Part shown: positions 12,355-15,900 of the stretch, in pieces
Layout: the number at the start of each line of letters is the position of its first letter
How positions within the stretch are numbered: the stretch's first letter is position 1
Origin: Diphasiastrum complanatum
Taxonomy: Eukaryota > Streptophyta > Lycopodiopsida > Lycopodiales > Lycopodiaceae
Length of the DNA: 64,000 nt
Assembly (NCBI GenBank): GCA_029204225.1
Contig: MU832100.1
Location: 23,390 to 87,389, forward strand
Direction of reading: 5' to 3'
Made by a program: the position numbers and the translations under genes
Notes under the pieces: generated by a model
What the model saw: only the letters and a program-made list of their open reading frames with translations
The model's database searches: none
Told to the model about the DNA's origin: nothing

Positions 12355-12960
12355 GCGGATGGCTTTCTACACGTTTTTTTTGCTTCTTCAAAAAAAGATT
12401 TTGTTGACGAAAATTGTTCTACTTTTTTTTTTTTTTCAAGCTAAAATGTGGAGAAAGCCATCCGTCGCGGCAGATGGCTTCCTATATTTTTTTTCCTCGA
12501 AAAAACATCTGGCTTAGTCTCAGTAGAAATGAAACTTCTTACCATTTTGTAAAAAGGGTAAAACTCAGTGGATGAATGAAATTCTGAAATTTCGTTGATA
12601 TCAAACTAGATAATCTTGAAAGCAAACGGAAATCTAGATTGGGGACTCCCTATATTTATGTTTTTTTCATTTTGTCATTTCTCGGAATTGCTTATGGGAT
12701 TAACCATATGACATGTGTCAAATTGACACTAATCCAAGCTCCCTCCATTTTTTTGTTTATTTTGAAAAAATTGTGGAGGAAGCCATCCGCTGTGGCGGAT
12801 GGCTTTCCGAAAATCTCGAAAATCTCAGAATATCTCGAAAAAAATATGAAAATAAAATCTGAAAGAAAAATTTCAAAAATCAAAGAAAACCGACGAAAAA
12901 ATCTTGAAAATCCCCGAAAGAAATTCAAAAATTCTCGCAAATCTCGAGAATCAACAAAGT
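12355..12960. repeat. palindrome repeats, distal block
   Basis: Contains a half-site (GCGGATGGCTTT, 12355-12366) and two near-perfect palindromes: 12455-12480 (AAGCCATCCG..CAGATGGCTT) and 12778-12808 (GGAAGCCATCCGC..GCGGATGGCTTTCC). After the second, CGAAAATCTCGAAAATCTC-type repeats begin. Both are preceded by GTGGAG/GTGGAGG and a poly-T/A tract, as in the copies at 14.2-15.9 kb. Confidence 0.8.
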
Positions 12961-13962
12961 TTTTTATGACAGTTTCTTGAACAGATGGTGATGCCCCTTT
13001 TTGTACACCTATGTTGAGCAGTATTTGAAGAGCAAAACAATTTGAAAACCTCTGAGATTGCAAACTCACCTTGATGAAGCCATCAAACAAACATGAAAGT
13101 AAAATTTGTTTCCAACACAATAGACTCATGACTACGTTAGAATGCCCATTGAGAGGTTACAAACATTGTCCATTACTGAGATTCCAAACCTGCAACATAT
13201 ACAAATTGCAGTAAATAGAAGTTGCTTTCATAATTTGAATTTTAAACTCCAGCCTACCACCATTTTACAGATTTGTCTTTCATTTGCACATCAACTGACT
13301 AAGAATTTACACCTACCTTCATGTTACTTCTCATCACCTCAAACATTTTTGTAAGTGTAATTCAAGTAATTAACAGTCCAATGCCCAGTGACAAACGTAA
13401 TTTCAAAGCTCTAGCTAGTAGAATCTTCAAGTTCTGACAATATCTACTACCATTCTAGTCTTCACGATTGGTGTTATCCAATCATTAACCTGAAAATCAC
13501 ATGAAATACATACCCACCAGAAGGAGCTAACAGTTGCAAGAAGTTATGACGTGTGTGTGTGTGTATGTGTGTGTGTTTAAAGTGCTTCCAAAGGGATGCA
13601 TTCTAATTTTAGCCCCAAAACCAAGCCTTAAAACCATACACGTTATGTTTCAAGGCAGAATACAGAAACATATTTTATATTCTAGCAAACATCAGTAAGT
13701 CCAATGAAAAAAACTATTGTGTGGAACAAAGCACAAAGTGTTGTACAATGGCTCTCATCTTATGCCTAGTTATAACAAAGTTTCTTGATTATCACTACAT
13801 TTGAATGAAAGAAAGAACCGTCAATACCCTGATAGATTTATCCGTTGAACCAAAATATAGCCTTCATCCTGCAGTTTGTAATGTTATCACAGCACTTGTA
13901 TGCCCCATGAGACTTGCTGATGGCTCAGAAGCTTCAGTGATGATCTGCGCTTATGGCTTATT
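12961..13962. other. AT-rich spacer without a recognisable gene
   Basis: A short (GT)n tract lies near 13551-13576. No coding similarity was seen. Confidence 0.5.
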
Positions 13963-14098
13963 GAGAGAGAGAGAGAGAGAGAGAGAGAGAGAGAGAGAGA
14001 GAGAGAGAGAGAGAGAGAGAGAGAGAGAGAGAGAGAGAGAGAGAGAGAGAGAGAGAGAGAGAGAGAGAGAGAGAGAGAGAGAGAGAGAGAGAGAGAGA
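13963..14098. repeat. (GA)n microsatellite
   Basis: A pure GA run of 136 nt. Open frames through it are artefacts. Confidence 0.98.
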
Positions 14099-14266
14099 AT
14101 ATAAAAAAAGGGACATTTAAAATGGGGAGGTGGGGAGAGAAGAAATGGAGTTTTGAATGGGAGGAGTGGGGTCACGCAAGGACAAAATGTGCATGAATGA
14201 AGAGGGTCATGCATCCTCCTTGCCCCACTTTCTAGTTCAAAATAGAGGATGTATGGGTGAGGGGGA

Positions 14267-14883
14267 AGAAGCCATCCGCCGGCTTCCCGAAGAAATCTCG
14301 AAAATCCACGAAAATGTCAAAGAAATCCCGATAATCCCCGAAGAAATTCTCAAAATCCTTGAACAAATTCCCAAAATCCACGAAGATGCCGAAAATCCGC
14401 GAAGATCCCCAACAAAATCTGCGAAGATCAATGAAAATACACGAAAAGATCCCAGAAAAATCTCAAAAATACACGATGATGCCGAAAAGTTGTCAAAAAG
14501 ATGCCGAAACGACCCCAAAAAAAATCCCCGTAAATCCACGAAGAAATCTCGAAAATCCTCAAAGATGCTGAAAAGAACTTAAAAATTCTGGAGGATCCCT
14601 GACAAAATACCAAAAAGATCCGCGAAAATCCTCGAAAAGATCTCCGAAGATCCCCGAAAAGATCCCGAAAATCCCCGAACAAATATCGAAAAGAGACGAA
14701 AAAAATTCCGAAAAGATTCTCAAAAAAATCTTAAAAATCGGCGAAACAATTTCGAAAATCCTCGAAAAGAATATCCTCGAAAAGACCACAAAAATCTCCG
14801 AAAATCTTTGAAAACATCCGCGAAAATCTCAGAAAAGAACTAGAAAATTCTGGAGGAAGCCACCTGCCAGGGCAGATGGCTTC
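14267..14883. repeat. degenerate CCCGAAAAAATC-type short-period repeat with two palindromes
   Basis: About 570 nt consist almost wholly of variants of CGAAAATCCC(C)GAA. A collapsed palindrome (GAAGCCATCCGCCGGCTTCC) sits at the left edge and a fuller one (GAAGCCACCTGCC..GGCAGATGGCTTC) at 14856-14883. CpG dinucleotides are abundant, unlike in the surrounding retroelements. The open frames here (Ile/Phe- or Lys/Ser-rich) follow from the repeat and are not genes. Confidence 0.8.
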
Positions 14884-14899
14884 TCGAAAATCCCCGAAC

Positions 14900-15900
14900 A
14901 AATCCCAAAAATCGGCAAAAAAAATTTCACATCCCAAAAATTGTGAATAAATCCCATATATCTCAAAAATTTTCGAAAGAATTGCGAATAAAACCCGAAA
15001 AACCTGAAATCTTGAATAAATTCCCAAACTCCAAAAATCCCGAAAAATTTCGAAAATCACAAAAACATTCCGATAATGTGGAAAACCATCCGCCGCGACG
15101 GATAACTTCCTCCATATTTTTTTTTTCCAAAAAAAAAAACACCCCGAACATCGCGAATAAATTCTAATATATTCTAAAAAAAAAATCATTAAAAATCAAT
15201 TTGTGTAAAAAAAAATTGGATTGGGGTCCATCCATCTCTAAAAAAATTTTACATCCCAAAAATTGTGAATAAATCGCGAGTAAATCGCAAAGAAATCTTT
15301 ATATATCTCGAAAAAATCGCGAAGAAATGTCGAAAAAATCGTCAATAAAACCCAAAAAGATCCGAAATATCGAATAAATCCCGAAAAAAAAACTCCAAAT
15401 TTCAAAAACCTCGAAAAATCCCGAAAGTCACGAAAACAATCTGATAATGTGGAAAATCATCCGCCGTGGCGTATGGCTTCATCCATATTTCTTTTCGAAA
15501 AAAAAAAACATCCCAAAAATCACGAATAAATCACGAGTAAATCGCGAATAAATCTCGAATATATTCCGATATATTTCTAAGAAAAACCATTAAAAATCAA
15601 TTTGGAAAAAAACAAATTCGGATTGAGGTCCACCTGCCACGGCGGATGGACAATCCCGAAAAAGATTCACATCCCGAAAATTGCGAATAAGTCCCGATAT
15701 CTCCCAAAAAAATCGCAAAAAAATCCTGAAAAAATGCCAATAAAACTCGAAAAAAAACCATAAACCCCGAAAACCCCCAAAATATCCGAAAAATCACGTG
15801 AAAACTCGAAAGAGTCGAGAAATGTGGAAATCCCCCTCTAAAAAATAATTTTGAAAAAAAAAATTGGAGGGGGTCCATCTGCCGCGACGGATAGACCCTC
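14900..15900. repeat. tandem satellite, about 370-bp monomer, two palindromes per monomer
   Basis: Palindrome A occurs at about 15082-15108 and 15451-15480; palindrome B at 15628-15651 and 15871-15897, with a degraded B at about 15226. Between them the same blocks recur in order: TCCATATTTTT plus a poly-A/T tract, CATTAAAAATCAATTTG, GGATTGGGGTCCA, CATCCCAAAAATTGTGAATA, ACTCCAAA, and GATAATGTGGAAAA before the next A. Spacing A to A is about 369 nt. Roughly two and a half monomers are present. Confidence 0.75.

Follow-up and report, generated by a model that had tools for sequence, protein, structure and literature searches.

Palindromes of a Diphasiastrum complanatum contig lie within an interspersed DNA transposon family

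The locus and its palindromes

This study concerns a cluster of CG-rich palindromes in 64,000 nucleotides of the lycophyte Diphasiastrum complanatum (GenBank assembly GCA_029204225.1, contig MU832100.1, positions 23,390 to 87,389, forward strand), a stretch referred to below as the window and forming part of contig C582 in the working labels used here. The palindromes sit inside an interspersed family of DNA transposons with terminal inverted repeats and do not constitute a free satellite. An element of this family reads, from left to right: terminal repeat, gene A directed leftward, a spacer with 20-bp dyads set among short repeats, gene B directed rightward, terminal repeat. Gene A thus occupies the minus strand of the left half and gene B the plus strand of the right half. 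The copy in the window is a dead remnant, with the following features.

11193..16402, plus strand: surviving part of a degraded transposon copy, its right end lost at the start of Copia-related sequence (limits of homology to other copies)
11193..11220, plus strand: left terminal inverted repeat, differing from the family pattern at one position
11713..12195, minus strand: open frame in the gene A remnant (C-terminal part); synonymous divergence (pS) 0.76 and nonsynonymous divergence (pN) 0.26 versus L029 over 149 codons
12355..12380, no strand: first palindrome, right half only, truncated at a gene A deletion junction (window 12356 aligns to L010:4838, within the palindrome at L010:4825)
12458..12477, no strand: palindrome 1, GCC type (palindrome scan)
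12783..12802, no strand: palindrome 2, of GCC type and with the best hairpin (z -6.4 when folded as DNA)
12806..12960, plus strand: short CGAAAATC tract (Tandem Repeats Finder); a top window for A-tract phasing starts at 12851
12954..13980, no strand: non-palindromic middle segment of the element, ending in a GA microsatellite; 90-91% identity to L017 and L018 (both 12954-13782) and L019 (12971-13980)
14272..14288, no strand: collapsed palindrome, left arm fused to the end of the right arm
14280..15860, plus strand: repeat units of the CGAAAATC type, their A-tracts in phase at about 10.5 bp and the DNA predicted to curve (autocorrelation; highest phased A-tract power in the window)
14860..14879, no strand: palindrome 3 (palindrome scan)
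15086..15105, no strand: palindrome 4 (palindrome scan)
15457..15476, no strand: palindrome 5 (palindrome scan)
15630..15649, no strand: palindrome 6, GGTCC type (palindrome scan)
15875..15894, no strand: palindrome 7, GGTCC type, overlapping a weak gene B match at its margin
15914..16345, plus strand: gene B 3' remnant with at least one internal stop, the DUF7869 part missing (translation); block 15914-16402 shares 91% identity with the C3 copy, 87% with L007:9208-9684

Gene A of the window has suffered two internal deletions, near 12103-12166 and 12353-12356, which removed its middle and N-terminal parts (no N-terminal piece was found in the window copy), and one of which truncated the first palindrome. 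The window has no right terminal repeat at three mismatches or fewer, and Copia-type frames lie beyond 16402, where homology to the element stops. At the left end, the palindrome scan finds no dyad beside the terminal repeat. The same insertion is carried by contig C13, at 97-99.6% identity and with the same left flank.

I took as the form of the palindrome CCATCCGC-NNNN-GCGGATGG, with the loop fixed at 4 bp and at most four mismatches, a limit adopted because a first collection at six mismatches took in 38 window matches outside the element; relaxing to five gives 3 chance matches elsewhere in the window. So defined, seven palindromes span 12458-15894 and none occur in the remainder of the 64 kb, as compared to a mean of 0.03 and a maximum of 1 in 100 Markov simulations of a 3.5-kb stretch. 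A preliminary description, made by eye from the letters, had counted at least seven palindromes in 3.5 kb with two flank variants, GCC and GGTCC, and in both respects it was correct.

The family, its ends and its genes

The palindromes recur elsewhere in the 1.74-Gb genome. The dyad with AAGCC flanks (AAGCCATCCGC, 0-12 bases, then the complement) is found exactly at 23 places (control 0), spread over 11 large and 3 small contigs, and all 16 loci fetched for a palindrome proved to be mutually homologous, L011 through a 389-nt piece only. Copies have a sharp start at a single base (window 11193, L010:1394, L018:8528, L016:6619, L008:8642), and three copies end as sharply at the inverse of the start sequence. 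The terminal inverted repeat, AACAYTGTCTCAATTAATTTTGGACTTTT (a 29-base pattern), has 747 matches in the genome at three mismatches or fewer (control 0). When the 200 bases of the left end (11193-11392) served as query, with 40 of 441 candidates scored, 27 of the 41 listed matches, the window included, began exactly at base 1. Target duplications of 4 bp (AATA/AATA and ACTA/ACTA) were found in both of the two copies with both ends read. With dispersed terminal inverted repeats and a target-site duplication both present, the family fits the TIR (class II) elements. No published description of the element, nor a name for it, was found in the open-licence literature searched. At one locus (G000:C18:15862253-15920672) four terminal repeats share one orientation and stand 18.8-19.8 kb apart, suggesting tandem duplication of an element-bearing locus.

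The palindromes had been taken for a satellite, with the reservation that a genome search might place them in a transposon, and this, in kind, is what the search did: they lie in the central region of dispersed transposon copies. An independent satellite would account for the local tandem repeats, but with 16 of 16 palindrome loci homologous to one family (L011 by its short piece) and the 23 exact places scattered over so many contigs, it is extremely improbable. I rejected satellite DNA as a class, since the repeats are degenerate and partial (66-79%), lie inside dispersed elements, and form no long homogeneous array.

Gene B matches Pfam family DUF7869 (E 2.2e-46) and has conserved Asp and His residues, with no sequence match in PDB. 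The genome offers 2953 first-look candidates for it, 150 of which were scored, all 150 exceeding the cut-off; six candidates, by eye, lie 1.6-1.9 kb from the closing terminal repeat of the element, and a pair of them, on C2, appear to be duplicates. A search of viral contigs for DUF7869 gave 62 pattern stretches but no relative, and no paper found in the literature searched names the family. For gene A there are 2998 first-look candidates, 93 of them scored. Five comparisons between L029, a full-length copy, and the window family give a pS of 0.76-0.84 with a pN of 0.21-0.42, from which it follows that gene A is coding and kept as a protein. At the start of gene B, adjoining the spacer, L029:6299-6459 and L007:7165-7608 contain tandem 69-bp coding repeats (about 23 residues, YNSDILT.VED).

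Over 17 loci, with the window and its twin L016 entered as two, 151 palindromes were placed relative to the genes seen. On the side of the spacer there are 137: 54 between A and B, 61 where A alone was seen, and 22 where B alone was seen. Another five fall beyond the first gene B match, two of them overlapping it; one lies beyond gene A, none inside gene A, and eight are in loci where no gene was seen. The first palindrome is 151-234 bp 5' of the gene A start in all nine loci that retain the start, a set that includes the near-copies L017 and L018. The window (78 bp) and L016 (109 bp) were left out because they have lost that start to a deletion; L019 (1094 bp) was left out for want of an N-terminal piece in the right orientation. 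Palindromes also occur at some ends. The C9 end has a perfect CCACCCGCC dyad 36 bp inside the terminal repeat and a decayed one at 178 bp, and the C1 end has CCATCCGCC-type dyads 85 and 217-239 bp inside. Each of these ends is present in two duplicated loci with the same flank, and they are therefore counted as two independent ends rather than four.

As for the superfamily, the best lead is a Sola-like one, drawn from the 4-bp duplication and published descriptions. Sola elements, Sola2 especially, likewise combine terminal inverted repeats with a 4-bp target duplication (here in 2 of 2 copies). According to passages of two papers (PMC10741241, PMC3627910), their duplications can be AT-rich, their sizes can exceed 15 kb, and they are present in a moss and said to be uncommon in flowering plants; chimeric Sola2 elements, one half shared and the other different, are described in part of the second (PMC3627910). 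Those passages differ from the present case in making no mention of a palindrome spacer between divergent genes. By title and abstract start, no paper in the open-licence literature searched treats Sola in lycophytes.

Two other assignments were rejected. Membership in CACTA is at odds with the ends (AACAYTGTCTC rather than CACTA), the length of the target duplication (4 bp versus 3), and the identity of gene B as DUF7869 instead of a Tnp2-type transposase, none of which appeared when 16 pieces of genes A and B were scanned with Pfam. The main array, moreover, is central, between divergent genes, and the end dyads were seen in two other elements. Helitrons and Helentrons are excluded by the presence of terminal inverted repeats, with no helicase match in the pieces scanned.

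Repeats, base composition and folding of the spacer

The preliminary description read a tandem monomer of about 370 bp in the right part of the array. Two to three degenerate copies do exist, a spacing of 371 bp giving 79% identity over 123 nt and offsets of about 320-415 giving 66% over 572 nt, but Tandem Repeats Finder, applied to 12300-15900, reports units of 9-22 bp only, plus the GA microsatellite at 13963-14098. Between the window dyads the autocorrelation of A-tracts peaks at lags of 10-11, 21, 32 and 43 (z 9 to 5, 100 shuffles), and similar peaks are found in L010, L006:4250-7050, L017 and L032, helical phasing being the case in most of the window-family copies tested. Three control stretches showed no 10-11 peak, one of them having isolated lags of 21, 30 and 18 (z about 4). 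When 1275 sliding windows were ranked by A-tract phasing, the top 15 all started at 12851-15701, and 15 of the 28 array windows exceeded the 95th percentile of the remaining ones. Phased A-tracts curve DNA, and the array is therefore predicted to be curved. A mid-spacer segment common to eight loci (L010:7087-7495 and other copies) contains short repeats with the frames CVQLINPCL / LFVYSSSI and resembles a separate tandem module.

Curvature of this kind could point to a replication origin, a resolution site or a chromatin boundary, where curved DNA and dyads would aid copying or exclude nucleosomes. The location between divergent genes would fit as well: in the res site of bacterial Tn3, dyad binding sites lie between two divergent transposon genes. 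Tn3 is bacterial, and no resolvase was recognized in the present element. In the pieces scanned no replication or recombinase gene was recognized, and I consider such a role quite unlikely.

It had also been proposed that CpG is kept in the palindromes while the surrounding retroelements decay. The ratio of observed to expected CpG is indeed high in the array, 1.98, as compared to 0.46 in the whole window, 0.57 where this copy carries gene A, and 0.08-0.58 in three Copia-bearing stretches. That it is kept in evolution is not supported, however. From 143 raw palindromes (at most four mismatches), 57 non-redundant ones remained after those 80% alike were dropped, with L016 excluded as the same insertion as the window, and among the 186 changes in their cores C>T and G>A account for 133. 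The window palindromes too decay mainly via C-to-T change, and their high CpG reflects the composition of the repeat unit. The outer arm positions 11, 12, 13 and 16 covary in the same set; hairpins kept by selection in old copies were rejected as a candidate, since the core shows no clear covariation.

Treated as single-stranded DNA and compared to shuffles, 12765-12815 alone does clearly better (z -6.4); the stretches at 12443 and 14842 reach z -2.5 and -2.7, and the other four lie between -1.9 and -0.5. One hairpin is strong, and four of the seven palindromes are within two standard deviations of shuffles. The strong hairpin, together with the 154 inverted pairs within 60 bp in L029:3400-6400, might suggest that a transcribed spacer yields hairpin RNA or small RNA that feeds or blocks host silencing. 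I regard this as very unlikely, in view of the four weak folds, the loss of arm pairing mostly through C>T and G>A changes, and the lack of any Rfam match above the gathering score in 11000-16500, where two snoRNA matches fell below threshold.

The window contains further repeats outside the element. One composite, in which a tandem repeat of 20-bp units (CCTTCGGCACTTCAAAGACA-like) precedes another of 67-68-bp units, occurs twice, 2.5 kb apart, at 60374-60675 and 62918-63191; a 51-bp unit is in perfect tandem duplication at 54399-54502 (2.0 copies, 100%); and a very long CT microsatellite of about 290 units occupies 23625-24199. Long GA/CT tracts are frequent in the window, as also within the spacers of several copies, and Copia-type fragments are present.

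Palindrome type, gene A and a proposed role

The full-length copy L029 has a different spacer, made of TTCTAGAAGGCC and TTCGCGAA units with CCACCCGCC-type dyads. On the gene B side it matches the C3 copy at 93% identity over 2098 nt (pS 0.10 to L007), the shared part starting at L029:6330, the border of spacer and gene B. Relative to the window family, then, L029 shares gene B, has a gene A whose difference is saturated, and has a different spacer. Other loci show similar pairings: gene A like that of L029 goes with the CCACCCGCC palindrome in L035 and L036 and with TTCGCGAA and GCAAAAATTTTTGC palindromes in L039, and L033 and L032 together provide gene A N-terminal pieces with CCTCCCGCC dyads and units of 10, 11 and 21 bp. 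The same GC-rich dyad plan (CCATCCGCC, CCACCCGCC or CCTCCCGCC plus the complement) recurs in three gene A lineages, with changes matched on both arms. Both L031 and the distant DUF7869 locus L030 carry different repeats on the 5' side of gene B and were not counted for the two-gene plan because gene A was not found in the stretches examined. L030 has a palindrome array of its own (GGACCTATGCT..AGCATAGGTCC) at L030:5541-5915, about 1.4 kb 5' of an open frame.

At one mismatch or fewer, the CCACCCGCC dyad is found at 352 places in the genome and the CCATCCGCC dyad at 157 (controls 0). The first 50 listed places of each were compared to a list of gene A rows that took in most of those available, leaving out second gene pieces, small contigs and part of the C21 cluster. 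Where a listed gene A lies within 12 kb, all 8 CCATCCGCC places (3 elements) are by gene A of the L008 type and all 11 CCACCCGCC places (8 elements) by the other type; 42 of the 50 CCATCCGCC places and 39 of the 50 CCACCCGCC places have no listed gene A at that distance. Counted by element, the association has a Fisher p of 0.006, slightly weaker if the elements at C5:74.7 and C5:76.7 Mb, which look like copies, represent one event, and one element at C5:29.8 Mb (two CCACCCGCC places) is typed solely by 50% identity to L008. The dyad is on the 5' side of gene A in 6 of the 8 CCACCCGCC elements and on the 3' side at 3 places in 2 elements. The terminal-repeat list (26 of 100 listed) was chosen by eye and so is not an unbiased sample. 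Palindrome type follows gene A, not gene B.

What, then, might the palindromes do? My preferred reading, to which I would give a probability of roughly 0.55, is that they are cis-acting sites of a two-gene DNA transposon, targets of the gene A protein for regulation and for recognition of the ends. The anatomy of the element, the coding status of gene A, the dyads in the spacer and at some ends, and the agreement of type with gene A are observations; the rest is a model. The product of gene A would be an accessory DNA-binding protein that occupies the dyads, probably as a dimer, and that of gene B the catalytic transposase that cuts and joins. Protein bound in the spacer would control the two divergent promoters, protein bound at dyads next to the ends would help to pair those ends, and the phased A-tracts would bend the spacer to bring the bound proteins into one compact complex. 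Of the readings considered, that of a bound regulatory element survives best.

The nearest documented logic for the putative gene A protein may be that of TNPA of En/Spm, which, according to a portion of PMC2613891, regulates its own element in addition to binding subterminal repeats. The same portion describes soybean CACTA elements (Tgmt*) whose repeats, some of them palindromic, are proposed to diversify together with a putative binding protein while the transposase is conserved. By analogy, the present family would likewise set a conserved transposase beside a fast-changing putative DNA-binding accessory protein and its repeat motifs.

Several results weigh against the proposed role. Both ends were read in two copies only, and the right end of L008 was not found at its expected place. 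Gene A has no Pfam match above the cut-off (weak ones include ORC6, E 0.034) and none in PDB, so that no DNA-binding domain is recognized in it, and a fold of the window gene A piece as a lone sequence was uninformative (pLDDT 40). Gene A lineages L037 and L038 have no such palindrome in the stretch examined. Helical phasing is not universal, the leading lags being 23 in L029, 28 in L030 and 7 in L031. None of the ten core positions per arm shows clear arm-to-arm covariation over the 57 palindromes. Finally, the joint inheritance of gene A and spacer could be explained by the plain linkage of neighbors as well as by recognition.

The lack of clear core covariation lends itself to a different account, in which slippage, template switching and unequal exchange generate and turn over short palindromes without selection, leaving the spacer a hitch-hiking by-product. 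The unit and length of the array do vary between copies, and there is a precedent: part of PMC7492417 describes Cg_HINE, non-autonomous Helentrons with satellite-like central repeats combined with different flanks. The present family resembles these in its satellite-like repeats mid-element and differs in having terminal inverted repeats, a target duplication and two coding genes. Against a by-product stand the recurrence of one GC-rich dyad plan, with matched changes on the two arms, in three gene A lineages, the comparable distance between gene A and the first palindrome on its 5' side in all nine loci, the palindromes beside two ends, and the near-helical phasing in both the window family and L032; I judge it unlikely.

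The binding-site reading can be extended. Gene A and the dyad array would form a fast-changing lock-and-key module, swapped onto a conserved transposase (gene B plus the right end), with the phased repeats as scaffold and each lineage acting only on its own copies. This is a tentative proposal, one I would sooner doubt than adopt.

What appeared to be a satellite thus becomes a control-like region in a large family of transposons, whose first-look gene candidates number in the thousands within a single genome. That genome holds lineages differing in both palindrome and gene A, some of which have nearly the same gene B. A change in the recognition specificity of a transposon thereby becomes testable, by binding assays on natural pairs.

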